This document shows, piece by piece, positions 25,796 through 39,190 of a stretch of 64,000 nt of DNA. Each line of letters opens with the position of its first letter. Position 1 is the stretch's first letter. The notes beneath the pieces were generated by a model. That model was not told the DNA's origin and did no database searches. It worked only from the letters and a program-made list of their open reading frames with translations. The DNA is from Terriglobus saanensis SP1PR4 (lineage in GTDB: Bacteria; Acidobacteriota; Terriglobia; Terriglobales; Acidobacteriaceae), in NCBI RefSeq assembly GCF_000179915.2, contig NC_014963.1, forward strand, positions 744,001 through 808,000, read 5' to 3'. The position numbers were made by a program, and so were the translations under genes.

Positions 25796-27076
25796 ATGAT
25801 GCGTATTCTTATGGCCGCTCACCCGTCTCCCGCCCACGTCAACGCCCTCGTCCGTATAGCGAAGTACCTCCGTAACCAGGGGCACGAAGTAACCTTTTTG
25901 ACCTCATCGGTTTTTGAGGACCTGCTTGCCGGAAGCGGCGTCCGCTTCCTTCCCTTATCGGGGATCGCCAACCACGACTATCGCGAGCGGACCAAGCTGT
26001 TTCCGGAGCTTGCCGCGGAGCAGAGCTATCCACTTTCACTGAATGGTTATATGAAATTTGTAAGCAGCCTCATGCCGGAGGAGTATGAGAGTCTCAAACA
26101 AATTCTCCAGAATGATCCCATGGATCTCATCTTCGTCGATCCGATCTTCTTTGGCGCGCTTCCCTTATTGCTGGATTCCGGGTCCAGACGGCCATCTCTG
26201 ATCTCCATCGGGATGGTGGCCCCACTCCTCAGTCTCCGGGAAAGTTCTCCTTTTACCGGTTATGACGCGTCTCCCGACGGGCTTCGCCGAAATGAAACCG
26301 AGAGACGGAAGTTTAACGATCTGACAGCGCCTGGACGGGCGCATATCGACAGCGCGCTGGCAGCGCTTGGATTGGAGGTGCCCGGAGGGTTTACCTTGAA
26401 TCTTCTGTACACACTACCCGATGCGTTTCTTCAACTCGGTACAGCGGAGTTTGACTTTCCCTCCTCTGACTATCCTCGGAACTTTCGATTCATCGGCCCA
26501 CTTCCTTCTGAGGAGGGCGGGACGTATACGCCGCCGGGTTGGCTGAGCCAACTGGAGGGCCAGAAACCTGTGGTGTTTGTATCGCAGGGAGGCATCGCTA
26601 ATCTCGATCCTGACCAGTTGATCAGACCTGCCCTGGAGGCGTTGCAGCACGAAGAACTCGATCTTGTGGTGACCCAAGGCGGAAGGAATGGTCATTCTCT
26701 TCCGAATGGACCGAATATTCATATTGAGCGATATCTGCCTTACGAATCCATTCTGCCCAAAACGGATGTTTTTCTGACGAATGGTGGATTCAATGGTGTG
26801 CAGCAGGCCCTGGCGTTTGGCGTTCCCGTTATTGTGGCCGGTATAACGGAAGAAAAGCTAATCGTCGGACATCGTGTCGCTCAGTCCGGGGCGGGGCTCA
26901 ATCTCGCCACAAGTAGCCCCTCGAAGGAGCAGATTCACGAGGCGGTGTTTACCGTTCTGAAAGAGAAGGCATTTCGGCAGAAAGCGCGAGAGCTGCAGGC
27001 GAGTTTCGCCCACTACGACGCTCTGCGGACGATCGGGGAAGTCGCGGAAAGCCTGGTAGCAAATTCAAAGAGGTAG
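25796..27076 (+). CDS. UDP-sugar glycosyltransferase, MGT/YjiC type (GT1)
   Basis: 426 residues. GT-B fold: acceptor-binding N-terminus MMRILMAAHPSPAHVNALVRIAKYLRNQGHEVTFLT and donor-binding C-terminus with KPVVFVSQGGIANLDPDQLIRPALEAL and VFLTNGGFNGVQQALAFGVPVIVAGITEEK, the macrolide/flavonoid glycosyltransferase signature. It should transfer a sugar from a nucleotide donor to a small hydrophobic acceptor. The start at 25796 or the next ATG (25799) fits the family N-terminus and the leaderless promoter. A terminator hairpin follows. Such genes often look horizontally acquired; no mobile element is seen here. Confidence 0.92.
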   Translation: MMRILMAAHPSPAHVNALVRIAKYLRNQGHEVTFLTSSVFEDLLAGSGVRFLPLSGIANHDYRERTKLFPELAAEQSYPLSLNGYMKFVSSLMPEEYESLKQILQNDPMDLIFVDPIFFGALPLLLDSGSRRPSLISIGMVAPLLSLRESSPFTGYDASPDGLRRNETERRKFNDLTAPGRAHIDSALAALGLEVPGGFTLNLLYTLPDAFLQLGTAEFDFPSSDYPRNFRFIGPLPSEEGGTYTPPGWLSQLEGQKPVVFVSQGGIANLDPDQLIRPALEALQHEELDLVVTQGGRNGHSLPNGPNIHIERYLPYESILPKTDVFLTNGGFNGVQQALAFGVPVIVAGITEEKLIVGHRVAQSGAGLNLATSSPSKEQIHEAVFTVLKEKAFRQKARELQASFAHYDALRTIGEVAESLVANSKR

Positions 27077-27089
27077 TCTCGCGAGGTGC

Positions 27090-27135
27090 AAAAGAAAAAC
27101 CCCATGTGCCGGTGAGGCCCATGGGGTTTTCCCTT
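27090..27135. terminator. Bidirectional terminator between the glycosyltransferase and TonB receptor genes
   Basis: AAAACCCCAT (27096-27105) pairs with ATGGGGTTTT (27121-27130), flanked by A-rich and T-rich ends, between two convergent genes. Confidence 0.8.
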
Positions 27136-27147
27136 TGCTTTAGAGAA

Positions 27148-30100
27148 CTAAAACAGGAGTTTGAGGCTGAGCTGCAGTTGGCGGCTGGTGGTAGAGGTGG
27201 CTGTAATGACGCCAGCGGTGGGGGAGGTGGCTGCGATGACCTGTGCGGCGGTCGGCTGGGCCGTGGAGGCGGCGTAAGTTGGCGCGGAGGCCAGGATGAC
27301 GGCGTTCGGTGTGGCGAAGTTGGAGTGGTTGAGGAGGTTGAACGCCTCTACGCGGAACTGGGCGCGGAGACGCTCGCCGATCGGTGTGGTGCGGGCCAGT
27401 GAAAGATCCACCGTCGTCAGGCCGGGGCCGATGAGTGAGTCGCGGCTTGCGTTGCCGACGGCGCCCGCGGTGACGGTCGTTCCCGAAAGCTTCGAGAATG
27501 GTGCGATGTAGGCGGTGGGGTCGAACCACTGCGTGACGGAGTGCGGGTAGAGATTGCCGTGGAAGTTCGGGTTCACGTTGGGGCGGACGGGGTTACGCGA
27601 GTCTCCTGAGCCGGTGGGGTTGTAGCCAAGCTGTGGCGAGAAAGGGAAACCGGTCTGTGCCGTGATGATGGTGGAGACCGTCCAGCCGCCGAGCGTCGTG
27701 GAGGCGAGGCGGTTGGAGTTGGCGAAGCGGCGGCCTTTGCCGAAGGGCAGATCGTAGCTGCCGTTGATCGCGGCGAGGTTGCGCACATCGGCGGCGGAGG
27801 GACCCCAGTCGAGGCGGCTGACGTTGGGCACGCTCACGAAGGCCGGGGTGTTGGAAGAGACTGACGTATTCCACGCCGAGCCGTTGTCGAGGTTCTTCGA
27901 CCACGTGTAGACACCACGAAGCTGGAGACCGTTGGCGAAGCGGCGGTGCAGATCCACGGTGAGCGCGTTGTAGAGAATGTTGCCACCGGAGAACCAGCTG
28001 GTTGTGTTGGCTACGTTCGGGTTTGCGAAGACATTGGTCGGGTAATAAATGGTTCCGTTGGCGAGACCCGAGGGGCAGGCGCTGGACGGGCAGAGGACGT
28101 TCGCGGGTTCGTTGGTGTCTCCCGAGAGGATCTGGTGATTGCCGCGTGAGCCGACGTAGCCGATTGTGAGCGACGTTGTGGGCGTCAGTTGCTGCTCAAG
28201 GTGCAGCGTCCAGCTCAGGAGCGTTGGTGTCTTGAGGTCGGGCTGAGTGTTGGAGGGCGAGATCTTGCTGCCAGCAGGTGCGGGCGTGTTGGGCGAGATG
28301 GCGAGCGAAGAGACGGCGACGTTTTTCAACTGCACGGTGGTGTTGAAGGGGGCGGCCTGATCGAAGCGGTAGTTGAGCGTGTCGAGCAGCGAGCGGTAGA
28401 CACCGATGCCTCCGCGCAACGCGGTGTGCCCATTGCCGAAGACGTCATAGGAGAAGCCGACACGCGGGCTGGGCAGGAACTTTGCGTTGTTGGTGGTGAG
28501 GCCGCTGGAGGAGACGGTGGGGTTGGTGTCGATCACGCCATTTGTGAAGAGATAGTTCGCGGCGCGGCCATGGGCTTCGTTCCAGCCGTTGGTGCTTTCG
28601 ACGCGTACGCCGCTGCGCAGCTCGAAGCGGCGCGTGAGCTTCCATGTGTCTTCGACGTAGCCCGCGCCCTGCCACGAGCGCCAGTTGAGACGCGTCGGCG
28701 ATGGCACGACGGAGAAGGTGGCGACGGTACCTTGCAGGAAGGTCGTTAAGTTGGTGAAAGCGGCTTGTCCGGCCTGGTTCTGCGCGAGGTTGTCGTTGGA
28801 CTGCACCCACTGGACGAGGCCGCCGACTTCTATCTGGTGCCGACCGCGCGAGTAGAAGACATGGTCGTCGAAGGTATAGAGGTTGCGCGCGGTGGCGTTG
28901 TTGCTGCCGACGTTCGCGCCAGCCTGCGTGACCTGCGATTGTCCGTTGGAGGCGGTCGAGCCTGCGATGACGATGGCCCCAACCTGTTTTCCGATGACGA
29001 AGGGCGTCGGATTGCTGTTGTCATTCGTCGTGACGATGCCGTTGAAGAAGAAGGAAGCGCGCGAGAAGCCGAGGCGTGCGGTATTGAGGAAGTTCGGCGT
29101 GATGACGTGCTGCTGCTGCACGGAGACCACCTGTTCGCGGATCGTCTCGTAGATGGAGGAGAGCGGGTTTGCCGAAGGCGTAGTGGCGTCGGAGTCGTCG
29201 ACCGTGTAGACGGCAAAGAGGAGATCGCGCGGAGACTGGTTCCAGTCGAAGCGCGTTGTGCCGAAGTTTTCGCGAATGTTTTGAATGGGCGAGGAGAAGG
29301 CCTTGGCGATACCGGAGCCGATGGAGGGACCGTTGGGTGTGGGCCAGAGGGCAAGCAGGGGAGCGACGGCGGGATTCACACCGACGAAGGTCTCTCCACC
29401 AGTGCCGTTGGGAAGAAAGCCCTGGCGTGCACGCGCGTCGGGAACGAGGGTGACATCGGAGAGGCCGAGGTTCTGGCGATAGCTTTCATAGTTCGCGAAG
29501 AGAAGGAGTTTGTCGCGCAGGATGGGACCGCCGAGCGAAGCGCCGAAGTTGTTGCGCTGGAAGGTGGGCAGGCGCTTGGTGGCATTGGGCTGGTCGAAGT
29601 AGTTGCGGGCATCGAGGACGGAGTTGCGGAAGAACTCGTAGGCCGAACCGTGCAGCTTATTGGTGCCGGAGAGGGTGACGATGGAGATCTGCGCGCCTTG
29701 GCGCTTGCCGTAGTTTGCACCGTAGTCGTCGGCGACGACGTTGAACTCGCGCACGGCTTCGACGCCGAGGAGTTGGCCGCTGGTGCCGCCAGGGGTGACG
29801 TTGATGAGCGAGGCCCCGGTGTACTCGATGCCGTTGAGGAGGAAGAGATTGTCCTGCGGACGATGACCGGAGACGGAGAACATATTACCCACGGAGGAGT
29901 TCGAGGTGCCGATGGAGCCAGCGCGCTGGCCGCTGTAGTTCACCGTGGCGGGGTTGAGCGTCATGAGCTGGTCGTAGCTGCGACCGTTGAGGGGAAGCTG
30001 CTTGATCTGGCGTTCGTCGACGAGACCCGAGGTCTGCTGCGTGCTGAGGTTGACGGCGGGAGGCGTGTCCGTCACATCGACCTGCTGCGCGACTTCGCCG

Positions 30101-30423
30101 GCGGCAAGCGAGAGATCGACGGTGATGCTCTGGCCGATGACCAGGCCGATCCCGGATCTGTGCGCCGTCTGGAAGCCCTGCTTTTCTACCGTAATGGTGT
30201 ATGTCCCGACGGGGACGGAGGGCGCGTTGAAGTGGCCGTCGGCCCGTGTGGTGAGGTCGCGCTGGTTGCCGGTTTCTGTGTTGCGCACGTTGACGTGCGC
30301 GTCGGAGACGGTGGCTCCTGAGGCGTCGGTGACGGTTCCTTCTACGGAGCCGCCAACGACCTGGGCGTGGAGGCTGAGGGTGGTGACGAGTGCTGCGAGT
30401 GCGATTCTGGCTAAGGCTTTCAT
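27148..30423 (-). CDS. Oar-like TonB-dependent receptor with carboxypeptidase-regulatory domain
   Basis: 1,091 residues with a signal peptide (cleavage near LHAQ). Residues 25-105 form a CarboxypepD_reg/TTQ-like beta-sandwich (GSVEGTVTDASGATVSDAHVNV). A plug domain follows (QIKQLPLNGRSYDQLMTLNP, DNLFLLNGIEYTG, AVREFNVVADDYGANYGKRQGAQISIVT), then a long beta-barrel with aromatic-rich strands, ending in LQLSLKLLF. This architecture is expanded in acidobacteria and takes up or binds large substrates such as glycans or siderophores. No partner (SusD-like, sigma/anti-sigma) lies next to it. The ATG has AGGAAC upstream. Confidence 0.95.
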   Translation of the reverse strand: MKALARIALAALVTTLSLHAQVVGGSVEGTVTDASGATVSDAHVNVRNTETGNQRDLTTRADGHFNAPSVPVGTYTITVEKQGFQTAHRSGIGLVIGQSITVDLSLAAGEVAQQVDVTDTPPAVNLSTQQTSGLVDERQIKQLPLNGRSYDQLMTLNPATVNYSGQRAGSIGTSNSSVGNMFSVSGHRPQDNLFLLNGIEYTGASLINVTPGGTSGQLLGVEAVREFNVVADDYGANYGKRQGAQISIVTLSGTNKLHGSAYEFFRNSVLDARNYFDQPNATKRLPTFQRNNFGASLGGPILRDKLLLFANYESYRQNLGLSDVTLVPDARARQGFLPNGTGGETFVGVNPAVAPLLALWPTPNGPSIGSGIAKAFSSPIQNIRENFGTTRFDWNQSPRDLLFAVYTVDDSDATTPSANPLSSIYETIREQVVSVQQQHVITPNFLNTARLGFSRASFFFNGIVTTNDNSNPTPFVIGKQVGAIVIAGSTASNGQSQVTQAGANVGSNNATARNLYTFDDHVFYSRGRHQIEVGGLVQWVQSNDNLAQNQAGQAAFTNLTTFLQGTVATFSVVPSPTRLNWRSWQGAGYVEDTWKLTRRFELRSGVRVESTNGWNEAHGRAANYLFTNGVIDTNPTVSSSGLTTNNAKFLPSPRVGFSYDVFGNGHTALRGGIGVYRSLLDTLNYRFDQAAPFNTTVQLKNVAVSSLAISPNTPAPAGSKISPSNTQPDLKTPTLLSWTLHLEQQLTPTTSLTIGYVGSRGNHQILSGDTNEPANVLCPSSACPSGLANGTIYYPTNVFANPNVANTTSWFSGGNILYNALTVDLHRRFANGLQLRGVYTWSKNLDNGSAWNTSVSSNTPAFVSVPNVSRLDWGPSAADVRNLAAINGSYDLPFGKGRRFANSNRLASTTLGGWTVSTIITAQTGFPFSPQLGYNPTGSGDSRNPVRPNVNPNFHGNLYPHSVTQWFDPTAYIAPFSKLSGTTVTAGAVGNASRDSLIGPGLTTVDLSLARTTPIGERLRAQFRVEAFNLLNHSNFATPNAVILASAPTYAASTAQPTAAQVIAATSPTAGVITATSTTSRQLQLSLKLLF

Positions 30424-30550
30424 GGTGTTCCTATACGCGGGATGGTGCGCGCGGGTGTGCGCTTTTGAGGGCTTCTATTTTTTGTTTGTTGAGGAGTTGC
30501 GGGTTTTACTTAGCGACAACAGGGCGTCGTCGGGTGACAACAGGCATCCG

Positions 30551-30608
30551 TTTGTGCGCTCCGCGCGACCCCATTCTTTCGCGATACTGCCGCGAAAGAA
30601 TGGGGCAC
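30551..30608. repeat. TGGGGCAC hairpin repeat (family A), copy 2
   Basis: CCCCATTCTTTCGCG (30569-30583) pairs perfectly with its complement at 30591-30605 around a seven-base loop, then GCAC. It is preceded by TTTGTGCGCTCCGCGCGA as in the other copies. It lies between the TonB receptor gene start and the UPF0324 gene end. Confidence 0.85.
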
Positions 30609-30644
30609 GGGGTTACGCAGGTTTTTCGTGGCGTCTTGGGAAGG

Positions 30645-30684
30645 AAAAGCAGATCCCTTCGCTTCGCTACGGGATGACAAAAAG
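30645..30684. repeat. GATCCCTTCGCTTCGC repeat (family B), copy 1
   Basis: Matches the copy at 39210 over GATCCCTTCGCTTCGCTACGG and the following GATGACAAAA. It lies just beyond the stop of the UPF0324 gene and 36 bases from a family A copy. Confidence 0.8.
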
Positions 30685-30691
30685 GTGGTCC

Positions 30692-31801
30692 TCATCGGCC
30701 AGCTCCGAGGGAGTGGTATGCCCAGAAGACGAGACCGAGGGTGATCAGCGCGATGGCGATCTCGCCCAGGACGCCGACGACGATGGGACGCCAGCCCTGT
30801 CCGACGAGGTCGCGTAGCTGGGTGCGCAGGCCGACACCGGCGAAGGCGGGAAGGAAGGCCCAGCGTGAGAGGTTCGAAAGGCTGGTGAGCTGCCCTTTGG
30901 TGAAGAAGCCTGCTGTGGCGAGGACCGAGATCGCGAGGAAGCCGAGGATGAACTTGGGGAACTTCTGCCAGAGAAAGAGCGCCTTGTTTTTAACGTTCGG
31001 TGCCTTGCCCTTGGACGACCAGTAGACCGCGTAGCCAAGGACGACGAAGCCGATGAAGGCCGAGCGGGCAGTCTTGGCGAGAACGGCAAAGCGTCCGGCC
31101 TCTTCGCCGTAGAGCGCGCCGGTGACGGTGGCTTCGGCGGTATTGTCCACGGCGAGGCCGGTCCACATGCCATAGGCCTGCTGGGTCATATGGAGCGCGT
31201 GGCCGATGAGCGGAAAGGTGAAGAGGGCGATGGCGCCGAGCATCAAGATGGCGGCGATGGCGGTGGAGGTGTCTTCTTCGTCCGGCTCGATCGCGCCCTG
31301 TGCGGCCATGATGGCGGTAACGCCGCAGATGGAGCTGCCGATGGCGAGGAGCGAGGTGAGTTTAGGCGGAAGACCGAAGATTTTGCCCAGCAGCGTCATG
31401 AAGCTCAGCGAGAGCGCCAGCTCAATGAAGACCAGGAAGAGCGAGAGGCCGCCCAGATGCAGGATGTCGTTGAAGAGAAACTTAGCGCCGACGAGGACGA
31501 TGCCGAGCTTGAGCCAGAGTTCGTAGGTGGCAACGCCGGGGGCGAAGATCTTTGAAACACCGATGGTATTGGAGATCAGAAGGCCCAGGATGATGGCCCA
31601 GAGAACGTACTCCATGTGCGGGAAGTAGATATTGCGGGCCTGTAGATTGCGGCCGAGCGTCTCCATCAGTTTGCCGAGAAGACCGATCCCAAAGAGCAGA
31701 GCCATGCCGGGCAGAAGGCGAAGAAAGCCGCTCCCGCCCTCAGAGACATCCTGCGTAGCGTGGCCGTGTTGATTGCGCTCTAGTGTGGCGGAAGGGGACA
31801 T
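30692..31801 (-). CDS. UPF0324/YeiH-family transporter (putative sulfate or sulfite exporter)
   Basis: 369 residues with about ten hydrophobic helices and no signal peptide. Conserved family segments: YVLWAIILGLLISNTIGV, LGIVLVGAKFLFNDIL, LLAIGSSICGVTAIMAAQGAI and WAFLPAFAGVGLRTQL. The family (Cons_hypoth698) is annotated as sulfate exporter from its links to taurine and sulfite metabolism (TauZ, YeiH); transport has rarely been shown directly. The gene follows a 62-residue membrane protein by 24 bases, with CAGGAG overlapping the upstream stop region. Both lie downstream of a cysteine-rich leader peptide and attenuator, which supports a sulfur-related role. Confidence 0.92.
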   Translation of the reverse strand: MSPSATLERNQHGHATQDVSEGGSGFLRLLPGMALLFGIGLLGKLMETLGRNLQARNIYFPHMEYVLWAIILGLLISNTIGVSKIFAPGVATYELWLKLGIVLVGAKFLFNDILHLGGLSLFLVFIELALSLSFMTLLGKIFGLPPKLTSLLAIGSSICGVTAIMAAQGAIEPDEEDTSTAIAAILMLGAIALFTFPLIGHALHMTQQAYGMWTGLAVDNTAEATVTGALYGEEAGRFAVLAKTARSAFIGFVVLGYAVYWSSKGKAPNVKNKALFLWQKFPKFILGFLAISVLATAGFFTKGQLTSLSNLSRWAFLPAFAGVGLRTQLRDLVGQGWRPIVVGVLGEIAIALITLGLVFWAYHSLGAGR

Positions 31802-31825
31802 GGTGGAGGAGCGAGTGTGCTCCTG

Positions 31826-32014
31826 TTAGAACCCGATGCTCGGGATGATGTTGAGGCGAATGAGGATCGCGAGGGTAAGCGCGATGCCGATCGCCAGCAT
31901 GTCGATCTGCGCGGAACCGTACTTGTGGCCGATTGTGGCGACCTTGGGCTGGCTGACAGCGTCAAAACGCGAAACGCGTGCTGCGGTGAGATCGGCTGTG
32001 GTGGTGTAGGGCAT
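31826..32014 (-). CDS. 62-residue single-helix membrane protein upstream of the UPF0324 transporter
   Basis: Starts at the ATG at 32014, with AGGAG eight bases upstream; the open frame extends upstream but only this start has a ribosome site. The N-terminal 35 residues are soluble (MPYTTTADLTAARVSRF...), followed by one hydrophobic helix (MLAIGIALTLAILIRLNI) and a short tail. I know no named family. Its position as first structural gene after the attenuator and just before the transporter suggests an accessory subunit or stabiliser of the transporter. Easily missed by gene finders. Confidence 0.75.
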   Translation of the reverse strand: MPYTTTADLTAARVSRFDAVSQPKVATIGHKYGSAQIDMLAIGIALTLAILIRLNIIPSIGF

Positions 32015-32080
32015 TGCTGACTCCTGAATCCGAATGGGTGAGGCCTGTAACTGTGTGGCCTGCGGTGGGGAGGGTTCCAG

Positions 32081-32120
32081 AAAGAGAAAACCCACGCTGC
32101 CGTTTGGCTCTGTGCGTGGG
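32081..32120 (-). terminator. Intrinsic terminator (attenuator) between leader peptide and transporter genes
   Basis: On the minus strand CCCACGC (32120-32114) pairs with GCGTGGG (32097-32091). An inner GCC/GGC pair of arms closes a four-base loop. TTTTCTCTTT follows directly (32090-32081). It lies 45 bases after the leader peptide stop and 67 bases before the next start codon, so full-length transcription must read through it. Confidence 0.8.
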
Positions 32121-32164
32121 TGGGATGCTCTTATGTCTGGGGCGAGTGTGTGAGGCTCGACTTA

Positions 32165-32248
32165 CTACAGACAACAACAACCGACGCGACAGAGTGTCCC
32201 CGTACAACAGGGGCAACAGCTACAGATCGCGATGGAGTTGGTCAACAC
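32165..32248 (-). CDS. Cysteine-rich leader peptide (27 residues, 9 Cys), leaderless
   Basis: GTG at 32248 opens 27 codons ending in TAG at 32165. Cys stands at residues 9, 11, 12, 14, 15, 20, 24, 25 and 26; eight of the nine codons are TGT and one is TGC. The promoter's -10 ends seven bases before the GTG, so the ribosome would begin on the 5' end of the transcript without a Shine-Dalgarno. An intrinsic terminator and two membrane-protein genes follow. The design fits a translation-coupled sensor of charged Cys-tRNA. Similar leaderless polycysteine peptides regulate sulfur genes in mycobacteria; a link in this organism is inference. A metal-binding peptide is a less likely alternative. Confidence 0.7.
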   Translation of the reverse strand: MLTNSIAICSCCPCCTGTLCRVGCCCL

Positions 32249-32284
32249 TGTAATAAAAATACCTTTGTGGAGTAGATGCGTCAA
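32249..32284 (-). promoter_or_regulatory. Promoter of the cysteine leader/transporter operon
   Basis: Read on the minus strand: TTGACG (32284-32279), a 17-base spacer, then TATTTT (32261-32256). The predicted start point (about 32249) is at the leader peptide's GTG. Confidence 0.6.
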
Positions 32285-32360
32285 GATTGGGGAAGATTCC
32301 GGCGTGGGCGATTTTTCTTTCACAGGGCCGTGAAAGTGCGCGAACGGCAGCGCTGGCGGT

Positions 32361-34004
32361 TTAACCCGCCAGTGCTGCGTCCACGAGAGCCTTGGCTTCC
32401 GTCTGGATCTGTTTCAGGTGGTCTTCGCCCTTGAAGCTCTCGGCGTAGATCTTGTAGACGTCTTCCGTGCCGGAGGGGCGGGCGGCGAACCAGCCGCTCT
32501 CCGTGGCGACCTTCAGGCCGCCGATGGCCGCGCCGTTTCCGGGGGCGTTGGTGAGGACCTGGGTGATCGGTTCTCCGGCCAAGTCCTTTACCTTGACCTG
32601 TTCCGGCGAGAGCTTGCTGAGCTTGGCTTTCTCTTCGCGTGTGGCTGCGGCGTCGATGCGCTGGTAGACGGGCTCGCCGTACTTCGCGGTGAGGTCGGCG
32701 TAGAGCTGGCCAGGGTCTTTGCCCGTGCGTGCGGTCATCTCGGCGGAGAGCAGGCCCATAATGGGACCGTCCTTGTCGGTGGACCAGGGGCCGCCGTCCT
32801 TGCGGAGGAAGCTGGCGCCTGCGGATTCTTCTCCACCGAAGCCTAAGGAACCGTCCATGAGGCCATCCACAAACCACTTGAAGCCCACGGGAACTTCCAG
32901 GAGCTTGCGACCGATGCCAGCGGCGACGCGGTCGATCATCGAGGAAGAGACGAGGGTCTTGCCGATGGCGGCGTCCTTGCCCCATCCCGAGCGGTTGGTG
33001 AAGAGGTACTGGATAGCCACGGCGAGGTAGTGGTTGGGGTTCAGCAGGCCGACGGAGCGAGCGACGATGCCGTGGCGGTCGTGGTCTGTGTCGCAGGCAA
33101 AGGCGACGTCGAACTTGTCCTTCTTCGCGATCATGCTGGCCATGGCGTAGGGCGAGGAGCAGTCCATGCGGATCTTGCCGTCCCAGTCGAGGGTCATGAA
33201 GCGGAAGGTCTGGTCGACCTCGGTGGAGAGGACGGTGAGGGGAAGCTTGTACTGCTCGGCGATGCGCGGCCAGTAGTCCACGCCCGCGCCGCCGAGGGGA
33301 TCCACGGCGAAGGAGAGACCGGAGGAGCGGATGATGTCGAGGTCGAGCACGTCTTCCAGATGGCCGACATACTCGGAGAGGAAGTCGTGCTTCTGCGTGG
33401 TGGAGGCGTTGATCGCCTTCTGGAAGGTGATGCGCTTTACGCCTTCGAGGTGGGCGCGGAGGAGATCGTTCGCGCGATTTTCGACCCACTTGGTGACGTT
33501 GGTGTCCGCAGGGCCGCCGTTGGGCGGGTTGTACTTGAAGCCGCCATCGACGGGAGGATTATGCGAGGGCGTGATGACGATGCCGTCAGAGAGGCCTGTC
33601 GCCCTGCCGTGGTTGTAGGTAAGGATGGCGTGCGAGAGGGCGGGCGTGGGGGTGTAGCGACGCTCGCTGTCGATGAGGGTGGTGACGCCGTTGGCTGCGA
33701 GGACTTCGAGAGCGGAGATGAAGGCAGGCTCGGAGAGGGCGTGCGTATCCATGGCGAGGAAGAGGGGACCGTCGATCTTTTCGCCCGCGCGGTGCTCGCA
33801 GATAGCTTGAGTAATCGCAAGAATGTGCTGCTCGTTGAAGCTGCCAAGGAGGGCCGAACCGCGATGGCCCGAGGTGCCGAAGGCGACGCGCTGCGCTGGC
33901 TGTTCCACATCGGGAAGGATGGCGAAGTACTCCGAGGTGAGGCGAGGAAGGTTCGCGAGCGATGCCGGTGAGGGCAATTTCCCGGCGTTAGGGTTCAGGC
34001 TCAT
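32361..34004 (-). CDS. pgm: Phosphoglucomutase (alpha-D-glucose phosphate-specific)
   Basis: 547 residues from the ATG at 34004, with GGAG nine bases upstream; E. coli Pgm has 546. It interconverts glucose-1-phosphate and glucose-6-phosphate, linking glycolysis to UDP-glucose and glycogen. Visible motifs: [17 protein letters not shown] at the N-terminus, the phosphoserine loop [27 protein letters not shown], the metal loop [14 protein letters not shown], sugar-binding [15 protein letters not shown], and phosphate-binding [17 protein letters not shown]. All residues expected for activity are present. It appears monocistronic. Confidence 0.97.
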
Positions 34005-34199
34005 GTTTCGTGTCTCCGTTTGCTTGGAAAGAATACGGCAAAGGACGGGCAAGCGGGACGGGCTGACTGTGATGGAAGATCGTTTTCGCGTAGTTGGGCT
34101 AATTTTTGCAATTACACTGCTGGAAGCAAAATCCGTCCATGGCACAGGACGGCGGCGTGCATCTCTGAGTAGCGATCGTTGATCAGGTAGGCCAAACTT

Positions 34200-37100
34200 T
34201 TGAAAGTAGCTGTCTCCAGGTGTTTGATCCTGGTGTCTCTGATAGGGTGCGCTCTGCGCGGAGTCGCTCAGCAGGCGACGCTGATTGCGGACGCAGAGGT
34301 CACGAGCGTTCACTCCACTACAAATTATGGCGCCCTCTCCAACCTGTATGTGGGTGGCGGAGCGACGAGTCTGCTCCAGTTCGATCTTGGTGCTCTTCCG
34401 AGTGGAACGGGAGCGGCACAGATTGCGCGGGCGACCCTGCGTTTGTATGCGAATCGCGTGGACGTTGCGGGGACGATCACCGTGCAGGCGGTCAGTGGGA
34501 TGTGGACAGAGAGCGACGTGACCTTCGCTTCGATTCCTTCATTGAACTCTGTGGTTGAGTCTTTTCCGGTCGCGCAGCCGGAGCAGTTTGTGACCGCGGA
34601 TGTCACGGCGCTGGTGCAGCAGTGGGTGGCCGCGCCTGCGAAGAACTTTGGGCTGGCGCTCTCCGCGGGTAGCGCGAGCGCGGTCTTCGACAGCAAGGAG
34701 AACGACGACACGGCGCATCCGGCGGTGCTGGAGATCGCCCTGGTGAACAGTGGGGCGACTGGCCCCAAGGGCGATCAGGGCGCGACCGGAGCGCAGGGGC
34801 CGCAGGGCATCCAGGGGCCTCGGGGTCTGGATGGACAGCAGGGTTTGATGGGGCCGCAGGGCCTTACGGGAGCGCCGGGTGCATCTGGGCCGGTTGGAGT
34901 GCAAGGGCCTGCCGGACCCATGGGGCTGCAAGGGGGTAAAGGAGATGCGGGGGCAAAGTTTCGTGGGGCGTATGACTCGGCCCAGAACTATGCCGTGAAC
35001 GATGTGGTCACTTGGCTCAACTCCGCATGGATCTCGACGGTGGATTCGAACCATGGCAATACGCCTAGTTTTTCACCGTCGCAGTGGGCCGTGCTGGTTC
35101 CAGCGGCGGTCGGGGAACAGGGAGTTCCGGGCGCGACCGGACCTCAGGGCCTGCAAGGCCCGCAAGGATTTCGGGGAGAGACGGGTGCCACGGGCCTCCA
35201 GGGGCCGCAGGGTCTGACGGGTGCCACGGGGAGGCCGGGCTTTGTGTACCAAGGGACGTATCAGTCCACGACGAACTACACGGCGGGCGATGTGGTGCTT
35301 TGGGAGGGGGAGAGCTGGGCTTCGTTGACTGAGGCCAATCATGGCAACACGCCGAATTTATCCCCAGAGTTCTGGGGGATGCTGACGTCGACTGGACCGC
35401 AGGGTGTGCCGGGAGTGGCTGGAGCGACGGGTCCGCAGGGTCCTCAGGGCATTCAGGGGCAATTCGGTGCGCAGGGAGAGCGTGGTCTGCCCGGCCAAAC
35501 GGGACCTCCGGGGGCGCAAGGGCCGCAGGGGATTCCGGGAGCAGAGGGAGCCCTGGGGGCGACGGGAGCAAAAGGAGACAGGGGCGAGCCGGGGCCGGTC
35601 GGGTTGACCTGGCGCGGAGCGTACGTGTCCGGCACGAATTATGCCTTGAACGATGCTGTGGCCTGGCAGGGGCAGAGCTGGTTGTCCATTGCGGCCAGTA
35701 ACGCTGGCAATCCGCCGGATGCGAGTCCGCTGTGGTGGACGCTGCTGGCCGCGCAGGGAGCGCAGGGGCAGGTGGGCGAGATTGGCGCTGTCGGGCCGCA
35801 GGGGCCGCGCGGTCTGCAGGGCGAGGCCGGGTTGACCGGGTTGACTGGGCCGCAAGGGCTCACAGGCTCGCAGGGCGAGGCGGGGGCGAGGTTTATCGGG
35901 ACATATGACGCGACGGTGAACTATGCGCTGCACGATGTGGTGACCTTTGGCGGCTCGAGTTGGATATCGCTGTTCGCCAGCAACCAAGGGAATACGCCGG
36001 GAGCGTCTGGTGCCACACAGTGGTCGTTGATGGCGGCGAAGGGAGATGCGGGAGTGGCTGGTCCGCAGGGACTTCAGGGAGTTGCTGGGGCGATCGGGGC
36101 TGTGGGAGCGACTGGGCCGCAGGGCGTTCGAGGAGATCCGGGACCACAAGGCATTGCCGGTCCTACCGGGGCAACGGGCGCGACCGGCCAGCAGGGGCCA
36201 CAGGGCGCAAAAGGGGATGCTGGCGCAACCGGAGCGGTGGGCGCGCGCGGGCTTCAGTGGATGGGAACGTATGTCTCCGGGACGAACTATGCCCTGGGGG
36301 ATGCAGTTGCTTTGGATGGTTCGAGCTATGTCTCGCTGGTGGATGGCAACGTCGGCAATACGCCTGGTTTTTCCGGCGTGACGCAGTGGGCTTTGCTTTC
36401 TGCGAAAGGGGATGTCGGGGCTGCGGGAACTGCGGGCGTCAACGGGTTGAATGGAAGCAACGGAACGGCAGCAACGGTGCAGGTGGGGAGTGTGAACACG
36501 GGGGCTGCGGGAACGCCAGTCTCTGTGCAGAATATGGGGACGGCGAGTGCCGCTGTGTTGAACTTTGCTATTCCGCAGGGAGCACGCGGAGCTACCGGTG
36601 ATGCAGGTCTGAATTACAAGGGAGCGTGGAATGCTGCTACGGGATATGCGCTGCATGATGCGGTGAGCTTTGGCGGTTCGAGCTATCTTGCAGTCGCTGC
36701 GAATAGTGAAACGAATCCAGCCGACGATGTAGCTGCGGGCGGGTCGAACTGGGCGGTATTGGCTCAACAGGGAACTCCAGGAGAAGCGGGGGCTGCGACA
36801 GTGCAGATTGGAAGCGTGACGAGCGGTGCTGCCGCAAGCGTTACGAACTCGGGAACACAGAATGCCGCTGTGTTGAACTTCACTCTCCCCGCTGGCCCTG
36901 CTGGATCTGCGGGCGCAACGGGCGCGGTGGGCATGACCTATCGCGGAGCGTGGAGCGGTGCAAACCAGTATTCGGCGAGCGATGCTGTGACCCTCAATGG
37001 GACGTCGTATCTTGCACTGACGTCGAACACGAACGTGAATCCGGCGAGCGATGTGTCTGCTTCCGCGGGGCACTGGGCGGTGCTTGCGGCTGAGGGAACT

Positions 37101-37637
37101 TCAGGTGCCACAGGAGATGTGGGACCAGCGGGGCCGAGCGGAAGTGCGGCGACTGTATCGATCGGAAGCGTGACGACCGGAACAGCGGCGGTGACGAACT
37201 CAGGAACGTCTTCGGCGGCAGTGTTGAACTTCGTTCTTCCAGCAGGCGGCGGCGCGAGCGCAGGAGGTGCGGCGTACTCCTCGATCCATACGGTTACGGG
37301 CGGTGTGGGAGCCAATGTCTTCTACTCACCTATGGCAGATCTGAAGGCGAGTACCGAGACCTCGACCGTGCTGGGGTATCTCGGGCAGGCATGCACGGTG
37401 AACGCGGTGGATATCTACAACTCCGCAACAACGAGTGCCAGCGTAGACATCCGTACAGGCACTGCGCCGGGAGCCATGGCGCTCGCTTCAGGGGTGACGA
37501 CCTGTACTGCGCTGGCCGGAAAGACGACGGCTTGTCCGGGACCGGGTGCGCTGCCTGCGGGGAGCTTTATCGACCTCAAGATTGTTCCGGGAACGAGTAC
37601 CTCTACATTTGTGTGGAGCTCCTTTGTCTGCCAGTAG
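34200..37637 (+). CDS. Secreted collagen-like protein with DNRLRE domain and repeated CBM-like modules
   Basis: 1,145 residues from a TTG at 34200 (AGGTAGG upstream), with a signal peptide ending near GVAQ. Residues 25-180 form a DNRLRE-type beta domain ([22 protein letters not shown]). From 185 on, Gly-X-Y collagen stretches alternate with seven modules of about 50 residues (near 253, 347, 468, 562, 683, 802 and 910) of the form GxYxxxxNYxxxDVVxxxGxxWxSxxxxNxGNTPxxSxxxWxxL, resembling small chitin-binding CBM5/12 modules. The last third also has VQVGSVNTG...AAVLNF(A/T)IPQG repeats, and a C-terminal domain of about 110 residues. Probably an extracellular fibre for adhesion or glycan binding. 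The terminal domain is not recognised. Confidence 0.9.
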
Positions 37638-37681
37638 TTGGCAGAACGGCTATGCTGTTGGGAAAGTACAGGAGCAATGGA

Positions 37682-39190
37682 ATGAAGGTATTGCGCACGG
37701 TGGCCTTGGGTGTTTTGTGTGGTGTGAGTGTTTGTGGAGTGGCGCAGACGGCCGAGGCGCCGGGGTCGGTGGCCGCGCAGGCCTTGATGCTGGATGGCGT
37801 GATTGCGGAGTGGCATGCTACTGCGGATGGTCGCGACTTCAAACTGGTGAAGCAGGCGGTGGACAAGCATCTGACGGCGGACGGCGTGCTGGATGTTACG
37901 GGTGCGGATGCCGTAGCGATGGGCGTTCCGGTGGTGACGCTTTATCGCGTGACGCTGGAGGCGAAGTACTGGAAGGCCGCGACGGCGATTCATGAGGGGC
38001 TTGCCGGGGCGAAGCCGGCGTCTCCGGAAGAGATGTATTTTGCGGCGACTTTTCTGGCGGCGTACACGGCCACGGCGCATGAGAATTATGCCGAGGTAAA
38101 GCAGGCTTTTGCGTCGGCTGACACCTCTGCGTGGCGGCTGGCTGCGCTGGTGGATGGGATCGACTTTCTACCTGCGAATGCGGCAGAGCGCGCGGATTTA
38201 ATCTCCGCATTGCAGCGTGCTGCGGAGAAGACTTCTGCGTCCGGCGTCGTCGGCGAACGTCTGCGGAGCTATGCGCTGTTGAAGGCGGTAAGGATGGGGC
38301 TGCTGCCGCAGAAGATCGAGGCGGCTACATTGAAGTCGGCCACGAAGCTGCGCGGCGATGCGGGTGTGGATGCGAAGGGGCAGGACCTGCGCGAGGCGGG
38401 AGCGGCGATGCTGCTTTCGAGCGAGCTTGACCAGAGTGCGACCGCGCTCACGGAGCAGGGCAAGACGGTTGGGATCGATGCGTGGTTCAACTCGCAGATG
38501 CGCAAGGGACCGAATGGAGCGGACGGGTCGTTTCACTATAAGTGGGATGATGACGCGAACAGCGGCTTCTCGTTCTTTGGCCGCGCGTTTGAGCGTTATG
38601 GCGCGCAGCTGACGACCGTGGGTAAACCGACGGCCGAGAGTCTGAAGGGCGTGAAGGTCTACATCATCGCGTCCCCGGATATTCCTTCCAAGAATCCGAA
38701 GCCGAACTATGCGGATAGCGCCGATGCCGAGGCGGTTGCCGGATGGGTGAATGCGGGTGGCGTGTTGCTGGTGATGCAGAACGATGGCACCAATGCGGAG
38801 TTCGAGCACTTCAACGGGATTACGGAGCGCTTCGGGATTCATCTGAACGCTGTGCTTCGGAATACGGTCGAGGGCAGCAAGTACGAGCAGGGCAAGGTTG
38901 TGATTCCTGCGGGAACGACGGGTGTCTTTCGCGATGCGCACAACGCGTATATGAAGGAGATCTGCACAATCTCCACGCAGGCCCCGGCGGTGCCTGTGCT
39001 GCGCGACATGCTGCATAACTCTGGCGAGGTTTATATGGCGGTCGCCAAGTACGGCAAGGGAACGGTGTATGCCGTGGTCGATCCGTGGCTCTATAACGAG
39101 TACACGGATGGACGGAAGTTGCCTGCGGAGTGGGACCAGTTTGCTGCGGCCAAGGATCTTGCGCGGTGGGCTTTGGAGCAGAGTAAGTAG
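37682..39190 (+). CDS. Secreted protein of unknown function (GH105/DUF4350-like features)
   Basis: 502 residues from the ATG at 37682, with AGGAG upstream and 44 bases after the collagen-like gene. Signal peptide about residues 1-22. The N-terminal 180 residues are helical and hint at an unsaturated-glucuronyl-hydrolase-type barrel too short to be complete. From about 255 (FNSQMRKGPNGADGSFHYKWDDDANSGFSFFGRAFERYGAQL) the sequence moves into a DUF4350/glutamine-amidotransferase-like region: VKVYIIASPDIPSKNPKPNY, AEAVAGWVNAGGVLLVMQND, and GKGTVYAVVDPWLYNEY. The family link is a judgement from pattern; an envelope or polysaccharide role would fit. Confidence 0.8.
   Translation: MKVLRTVALGVLCGVSVCGVAQTAEAPGSVAAQALMLDGVIAEWHATADGRDFKLVKQAVDKHLTADGVLDVTGADAVAMGVPVVTLYRVTLEAKYWKAATAIHEGLAGAKPASPEEMYFAATFLAAYTATAHENYAEVKQAFASADTSAWRLAALVDGIDFLPANAAERADLISALQRAAEKTSASGVVGERLRSYALLKAVRMGLLPQKIEAATLKSATKLRGDAGVDAKGQDLREAGAAMLLSSELDQSATALTEQGKTVGIDAWFNSQMRKGPNGADGSFHYKWDDDANSGFSFFGRAFERYGAQLTTVGKPTAESLKGVKVYIIASPDIPSKNPKPNYADSADAEAVAGWVNAGGVLLVMQNDGTNAEFEHFNGITERFGIHLNAVLRNTVEGSKYEQGKVVIPAGTTGVFRDAHNAYMKEICTISTQAPAVPVLRDMLHNSGEVYMAVAKYGKGTVYAVVDPWLYNEYTDGRKLPAEWDQFAAAKDLARWALEQSK

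Follow-up and report, generated by a model that had tools for sequence, protein, structure and literature searches.

The closest described counterparts of the element analysed here are the cysteine-codon upstream ORFs (uORFs) of mycobacteria, reportedly called attenuators by Canestrari in 2020. Leaderless Cys uORFs were reported ahead of cysA2, Rv0485 and nirA (PMC4633059, Shell 2015). Six Cys-rich short ORFs (sORFs) of M. tuberculosis were treated as conserved regulators (PMC9094748), and the M. smegmatis case is termed translation attenuation (PMC13236596). For the Acidobacteria, a 2010 survey of premature terminators describes predicted attenuators, almost none with an associated function (PMC2965389), and Table 2 of PMC3160421 gives a mean predicted share of 13.3% leaderless genes for three acidobacterial genomes.

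An earlier note had read one short ORF upstream of a UPF0324 gene as a cysteine attenuator. It concerned a 64,000-nucleotide stretch of DNA, referred to below in its entirety as the window. The comparative evidence presented here, all of it derived from sequence, supports that interpretation. The element is very probably a cysteine-codon transcription attenuator sensing charged tRNA-Cys in a sulfur regulon. By sequence comparison, the single case is a member of a set that also covers sulfite reductase, sulfatase and tRNA-Cys genes.

The leader locus in the window

The locus comprises the following features:

32256..32284, minus strand: sigma-70-type promoter, TTGACG-N17-TATTTT, matching 9 of 12 consensus positions
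32165..32248, minus strand: leader ORF, probably leaderless, consisting of GTG, 27 codons with nine Cys, and TAG
32179..32188, minus strand: candidate antiterminator arm (region 2), CGCGTCGGTT, in the last leader codons and located as in relatives
32090..32121, minus strand: terminator hairpin from the minimum free energy (MFE) fold, with arms ACCCACGC/GCGTGGGT and a loop of 16 (N16)
32081..32089, minus strand: T-rich tail of the terminator, from the sequence
31826..32014, minus strand: 62-aa protein with one hydrophobic stretch; by eye, a similar one precedes UPF0324 in relatives
30692..31801, minus strand: UPF0324/YeiH family transporter, the presumed controlled gene (PF03601, E 1.4e-74)
27148..30423, minus strand: CarboxypepD_reg + OMP_b-brl_4 outer-membrane receptor (Pfam), possibly the last operon gene

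On re-reading, the promoter and the GTG at 32248 of the earlier note held at their coordinates, and the 27 codons, nine Cys, TAG, 62-residue protein and UPF0324 gene were all found again. The GTG lies 7 nt past the -10 element, the TAG ends at 32165, and the leader product is (M)LTNSIAICSCCPCCTGTLCRVGCCCL. A simple promoter scan of 31800-32500 (701 bases) returned this promoter as the single promoter-like site, against a shuffle mean of 0.1. The terminator had been placed at 32120-32081; the hairpin and its T-rich tail are present, but the hairpin starts one base earlier, at 32121. The hairpin stretch has an energy of -17.2 kcal/mol. A terminator scan of 31800-32500 reported none, the loop limit of the scan being 8 versus the hairpin loop of 16.

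The leader RNA was folded, as the earlier note had suggested. The terminator hairpin is present in the MFE fold, but in the window copy the antiterminator pairing was no better than in shuffles (z 0.01) and the whole-leader fold was unremarkable (z -0.49). In relatives, pairing at the equivalent site of region 2 is often stronger than in the window copy. Rfam covariance models, including riboswitch and T-box models, gave no match at the leader when run over positions 26000-38000 with E up to 1; the only match in that range was a snoRNA, below its gathering score and away from the leader.

Among 76,980 overlapping stop-free 27-codon stretches of the window, taken from both strands and all frames, two contained nine Cys, and both were this leader, offset by one codon. 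Chance origin of the leader was rejected because of this rarity and because of the conservation described below. The gene upstream of the leader encodes phosphoglucomutase. Adjoining that gene, at 34200-37637, is a 1145-aa ORF with long collagen-like G-x-y repeats.

Leaders and their target genes in Acidobacteriaceae

The UPF0324 protein was searched in 100 Acidobacteriaceae genomes and in the genome_contigs collection. This comparison, proposed in the earlier note, came out in favour of its reading: most close relatives have a Cys-rich short ORF ahead of UPF0324, the promoter spacing is the same, and a terminator usually follows. In genome_contigs, a Cys leader was found in 25 of 27 loci, a number that includes near-duplicates (L042/L043 and L041/L044/L047); these leaders contain 4-11 Cys and lie 616 to 239 nt upstream of the match. 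UPF0324 loci with the leader include those of Granulicella mallensis (L040), Terriglobus albidus (L047) and Bryocella elongata (L034). The two exceptions are L050, without a leader, and L056, with too little upstream DNA. L056 is a relative of 60% identity on a contig labelled Anaerolineae, for which a binning error or transfer is possible.

The 100-genome search yielded 20 close orthologs (L002-L021) of at least 60% identity, with distant or partial homologs (L022-L031) kept outside the counts. Nine of the 20 have a clear leader of their own (L002-L006, L010, L014, L020 and L021), three have a weaker one (L008, L013 and L018), and five (L007, L009, L016, L017 and L019) belong to sulfite reductase operons that open with a leader. 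L015 has too little upstream DNA to judge. Upstream of UPF0324 in L011 and L012, which come from two genomes of the window's own genus (G031 and G095), no Cys leader was found. Relatives that keep the transporter and lack the Cys codons were the contrary case named by the earlier note: such a case exists in these two genomes, so the element can be absent, but most close relatives carry the leader.

Promoters were tabulated for 31 UPF0324 leaders (29 distinct peptides; the weaker L008, L013 and L018 excluded). TTGAC occurs in 31/31, a 17-nt spacer in 29/31 and a TAnnnT -10 element in 30/31. The start codon is 6-11 nt past the -10 element in all 31, exact distances carrying the chooser's bias because start codons were picked by eye near the promoter. 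Leader length is 24-34 codons. In an alignment of the 29 peptides (A1), Met1 and two Cys are invariant, a third Cys position is conserved at 90% or more, and little else is common. A hairpin with a T-rich tail follows 28 of the 30 leaders examined; L014, L018 and L039 have no terminator by the hairpin criteria.

Sequence patterns on their own were poor detectors. The pattern CCxCC matched 54 times in the window genome versus 42 times in a reversed control, and nearly all open frames around the matches looked like chance, so the pattern alone does not detect leaders. With a profile built from the 29 leaders, 12 of 100 genomes had a hit at E <=0.05. Six were strong and corresponded to UPF0324 leaders already inside the profile. 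Of the six weak ones, five lacked a convincing leader, and that in G081 was traced to a tRNA-Cys gene (see below). As the profile missed its own members G064, G050 and G054, a miss says little.

Leaders are also frequent ahead of sulfite reductase. Using the G032 enzyme as query, matches were found in 60 of 100 genomes. Sixty-two matches had E <1e-180, and 61 upstream regions were examined, with G053 (contig end) left out; ten weaker paralog matches (E 1e-86 to 1e-73) are outside the set. G014, with 223 nt of upstream DNA, is outside the 60 genes counted, and a leader and hairpin are visible in those 223 nt. The automatic criteria were an ORF of 10-45 codons containing one CC among at least three Cys, and a hairpin with a T-rich tail. 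By these criteria an ORF was present in 53/60 loci (including the doubtful G087, whose frame is unlikely), an ORF with terminator in 47/60, and the latter with at least four Cys in 42/60. The same criteria applied to 244 ORFs of at least 200 aa in 42 loci gave 22 hits: 18 ahead of UPF0324 or sulfite reductase, one at the G081 tRNA-Cys leader, one ahead of a sulfatase and two ahead of outer-membrane receptors. Leader plus terminator was thus found at 47/60 sulfite reductase loci versus 4/226 other ORFs, the control being the 244 minus the 18 hits, among which a few such genes may remain.

The 13 sulfite reductase loci without leader plus terminator by these criteria, G087 among them, vary. Five have a Cys ORF and no hairpin by the criteria used (G050, G012, G085, G079 and the second copy of G099). 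In two others (G016 and G089), a leader with three Cys but no CC is present, together with a hairpin recognised by eye. The G062 gene sits behind a PAPS-reductase-like gene and the G054 copy behind UPF0324, both without leader plus terminator, and the upstream DNA of the genes in G095 and G031, from the window's own genus, contains no Cys leader. At L208 (G043), a short ORF with promoter-like spacing and a hairpin precedes sulfite reductase; it has one Cys codon and is a candidate for a decayed or re-specified leader. Among 54 tabulated leaders, whose starts were chosen by script for best promoter score, TTGAC was present in 43 and the 17-nt spacer in 41. In a phylum-wide search (E <=1e-120), 15 of 149 genomes had the gene, and 14 of these belong to Acidobacteriaceae. 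Six further genomes from this search, all of genus g34, have leader plus hairpin (6/6). The upstream DNA in G107, the lone sulfite reductase genome outside Acidobacteriaceae, is without a Cys leader.

The window genome contains two further leaders: MNFYAEVMGATNVRCCCVCLGFARSFERVWN, ahead of its sulfite reductase and following TTGACC-N17-TAACCT, and MKKLYQLAPKLCCCHSVQERGANMLCLEDCS, with a hairpin, ahead of a sulfatase (PF00884). In 150 genomes, three other sulfatase orthologs were found, one of which (G154) has a leader. In the PAPS-reductase region of the window genome (L162), the coding strand shows no Cys leader behind a promoter. The same genome encodes an sORF, MMTDRQIFSVRDTDTLPGRLAYLCSGCCLCCN, ending in CSGCCLCCN, between a sulfatase and an outer-membrane receptor (L079, reverse strand, ~1593-1495; C1 near 1909424). 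A clear promoter or terminator was not found for this sORF, which is perhaps an internal attenuator.

Gene neighbourhoods in other genomes tie the UPF0324 transporter to sulfur assimilation. In G072, G067, G096, G026 and G032, the small protein and UPF0324 come after a ferredoxin nitrite/sulfite reductase and siroheme-synthesis genes, identified by family matches in G032, G072 and G026 and by eye in G067 and G096. All five operons, ending in UPF0324, open with a Cys leader and terminator. The G026 row includes a tRNA-Cys gene (L017, 1177-1252), flanked by the genes for the methyltransferase and the small protein. UPF0324 is immediately 3' of APS kinase in L050 and, with its own leader, immediately 5' of sulfite reductase in G054. 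A receptor-like long ORF follows UPF0324 in six of seven relatives examined (L034, L037, L040, L047, L057 and L051; not L054), and in the first five Pfam identified the CarboxypepD_reg/OMP_b-brl_4 type. Salmonella YeiH protects from sulfite (PMC12880088). Since the Salmonella protein confers sulfite resistance, the transporter may either export excess sulfite or import a sulfur source, and we infer from the adjoining outer-membrane receptor that uptake is favoured.

Finally, leaders were found ahead of tRNA-Cys. In G081, the leader MKTNYTIAVMCCMCCCEYSRVRECVSV is followed by a terminator and then by tRNA-Cys(GCA). tRNA-Cys was searched in Acidobacteriaceae with two queries, from which genes too unlike them would escape; 30 of 100 and 42 of 300 genomes had a match, and the tRNA was anchored in all but two (L147 and L253) of the 65 loci, leaving 63. 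A Cys ORF with a terminator between ORF and tRNA was present in 8/63 loci, terminator presence being part of the counting criterion. The eight genomes (G081, G083, G029, G094, G289, G096, G343 and G387) represent six genera according to their taxonomic labels. Seven other loci have a Cys ORF without terminator, probably a chance frame, and 48 have no Cys ORF. Compared with 4/226 control ORFs, the p value is 0.0008; the tRNA-Cys loci, like the 60 sulfite reductase loci, come from related genomes, and p values are guides only. In G081, G083 and G387, TTGACA lies 74-84 nt before the start, so these leaders would have a 5' UTR. The DNA upstream of the window genome's own tRNA-Cys contains no leader. 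In G081, downstream of the tRNA-Cys locus (L121, reverse strand), another Cys ORF, MKFNFSIAMCCCRRGRGLVCATGGLYRCCTP, with a hairpin and T-run precedes an outer-membrane receptor; AAAGGA upstream of it is a possible Shine-Dalgarno sequence.

Pairing, codon choice and the proposed switch

The terminator's 5' arm is complementary to the last leader codons, over a leader stretch that usually starts 24-30 nt upstream of the stop codon's final base. Relative to shuffled leaders, the pairing was modestly stronger, with a mean z of -0.85 for 28 UPF0324 leaders (13 below -1) and -1.02 for 52 sulfite reductase leaders (27 below -1). Own partners also paired better than swapped ones. For 27 UPF0324 leaders, the pairing energy was -12.60 kcal/mol with own versus -10.93 kcal/mol with swapped partners (0/5000 permutations); for 52 sulfite reductase leaders, it was -12.98 versus -11.70 kcal/mol (1/5000). 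The gap was smaller in 20 leaders with an SGAG-like end (own -17.62, swapped -16.61; 50/5000). The eight tRNA-Cys leaders pair with their terminator arms at -14.8 to -24.4 kcal/mol, values without a shuffle control; for example, GCTCTGGCATGGGG pairs with CCCACTGCCAGAGC in G289, versus GCGCTGGCATGGGG with CCCACTGCCAGTGC in G096. In 21 leaders with a CTGG core, three flanking positions were paired in 36 of 63 cells (shuffled mean 27.4; 49/5000 reach this value), suggesting that the flanking pair positions co-vary modestly. Complementarity and this modest co-variation point to an alternative antiterminator that competes with the terminator in the group as a whole; the window copy alone does not exceed shuffles.

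Codon choice in the leaders differs from that in the genes. Cys codons were TGT 137/TGC 87 in UPF0324 leaders versus 1/31 in the genes (Fisher p 6.5e-11, from related sequences), and TGT 201/TGC 104 in sulfite reductase leaders versus 42/297 (Fisher p 9e-47, likewise from related sequences). The share of TGT is thus 137/224 and 201/305 in leaders, and 1/32 and 42/339 in the downstream genes. In 31/31 UPF0324 leaders, the first CC pair opens with TGT. As the anticodon of tRNA-Cys is GCA, TGT is decoded by wobble, and this may heighten the sensitivity of the leader.

What is conserved at the sequence level is the frame, the Cys codons, the promoter, the terminator and the target genes, together with group-wide complementarity; the leaderless start, the stalling of the ribosome and the direction of the switch we infer. 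Judging by the promoter spacing, RNA polymerase would start on the GTG or no more than a few bases away from it, and a ribosome would load on the 5' end. With charged tRNA-Cys plentiful, the ribosome would reach the stop codon and cover region 2, the terminator hairpin would form, and transcription would end before the transporter. With charged tRNA-Cys scarce, it would stall in the Cys run upstream of region 2, which, left free, would pair with the terminator 5' arm as an antiterminator, so that polymerase would read into the genes for the 62-aa protein, UPF0324 and perhaps the outer-membrane receptor. Because the first Cys run is upstream of the arm, a stalled ribosome should leave the arm free and a ribosome at the stop codon should cover it. 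The same device would act ahead of ferredoxin-type sulfite reductase, sulfatase and, in several genera, the tRNA-Cys gene. It is likely that in these genera the tRNA-Cys gene is under an attenuator that reads its own codon, and that this device also switches the sulfur transporter, sulfite reduction and sulfatase. A shortage of tRNA-Cys would then halt ribosomes at Cys codons, and polymerase could go on to transcribe more of the tRNA. By analogy with Salmonella, one point counts against the attenuator reading: a role of YeiH in sulfite resistance would have no obvious need during cysteine starvation.

Translational attenuation or coupling, in which a stalled ribosome exposes a downstream ribosome-binding site and the hairpin with its T-tail is of little weight, is improbable. 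The mycobacterial leaderless Cys uORFs ahead of nirA, cysA2 and Rv0485 (PMC4633059) and the term used for M. smegmatis in PMC13236596 offer precedents, and some Acidobacteriaceae loci are without a hairpin by the criteria used. Against this, a GC-rich hairpin with a T-rich tail is present in 47/60 sulfite reductase loci and after 28/30 UPF0324 leaders, and eight leaders precede a tRNA gene, which is untranslated.

Even less probable is that the Cys-rich nascent peptide is itself the sensor, binding metal or reacting with an oxidant or sulfite and arresting the ribosome, a model for which is provided by copper-responsive uORFs of the CruR type. Clustered Cys (CC, CxCC) could bind soft metals, but the 29 aligned UPF0324 leaders share nearly nothing beyond Met1 and the Cys core, and leaders with CCC only, CMCMC or a C-terminal CCC exist. 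In many sulfite reductase leaders, the segment pairing with the terminator arm is the SGAGR-like end. The leaders serve sulfur genes and tRNA-Cys, and favouring the rare codon TGT would be needless for a peptide sensor. A stand-alone, metallothionein-like Cys-rich protein with the hairpin as its ordinary terminator and an unrelated transporter is scarcely credible: the rather constant length of 31 leaders (24-34 codons) would suit it, but the same genes lie downstream in many genomes, the leader is complementary to the terminator, and the window peptide gave no match in Pfam or NCBIfam searches.

Comparison with known systems

The attenuator reading of the acidobacterial leaders can be set beside several described systems. 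Like the trp, his and ilv attenuators, the leaders combine an ORF rich in the control codon, a terminator and a leader end complementary to its arm; they differ in that the control codon is Cys, the mRNA looks mostly leaderless, and one target is a tRNA gene. To our knowledge, there is no other case in which translating the codons that a tRNA serves controls the gene of that tRNA. If true, a tRNA-Cys gene read via its own codons would amount to direct feedback on tRNA supply, and one kind of RNA element would balance the supply of cysteine and the tRNA that consumes it.

The UPF0324 proteins of Acidobacteriaceae are hereby tied to cysteine and sulfur supply. Salmonella YeiH, the namesake of TIGR00698, protects from sulfite and is controlled by the sulfite-binding LysR-type regulator YeiE, not by an attenuator (PMC12880088); the window protein matches TIGR00698 below its cut-off. 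The available part of the 2010 survey (PMC2965389) predicts attenuators in Acidobacteria and does not name a Cys leader. A likely function can now be proposed for attenuators in a phylum in which that survey assigned almost none. Among the literature matches listed, there was neither an acidobacterial Cys leader nor a leader-peptide attenuator ahead of a tRNA gene.

The mycobacterial poly-Cys uORFs are similar in having clustered Cys codons in a short ORF with sulfur genes downstream; they are leaderless, and most Acidobacteriaceae leaders are probably so too. By name, mycobacterial nirA is the counterpart of the sulfite reductase target, so that Cys-codon leaders precede the same target in Acidobacteriaceae and mycobacteria; judged by target name, this suggests convergence. 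The Acidobacteriaceae leaders belong to another phylum and, unlike the mycobacterial uORFs, have UPF0324, sulfatase and tRNA-Cys among their targets. They also differ in being followed by an intrinsic terminator with a complementary leader end, for which reason the switch is most likely at transcription. Relative to the mycobacterial uORFs, what seems novel is the occurrence in this phylum, the mechanism through a terminator and tRNA-Cys as a target.
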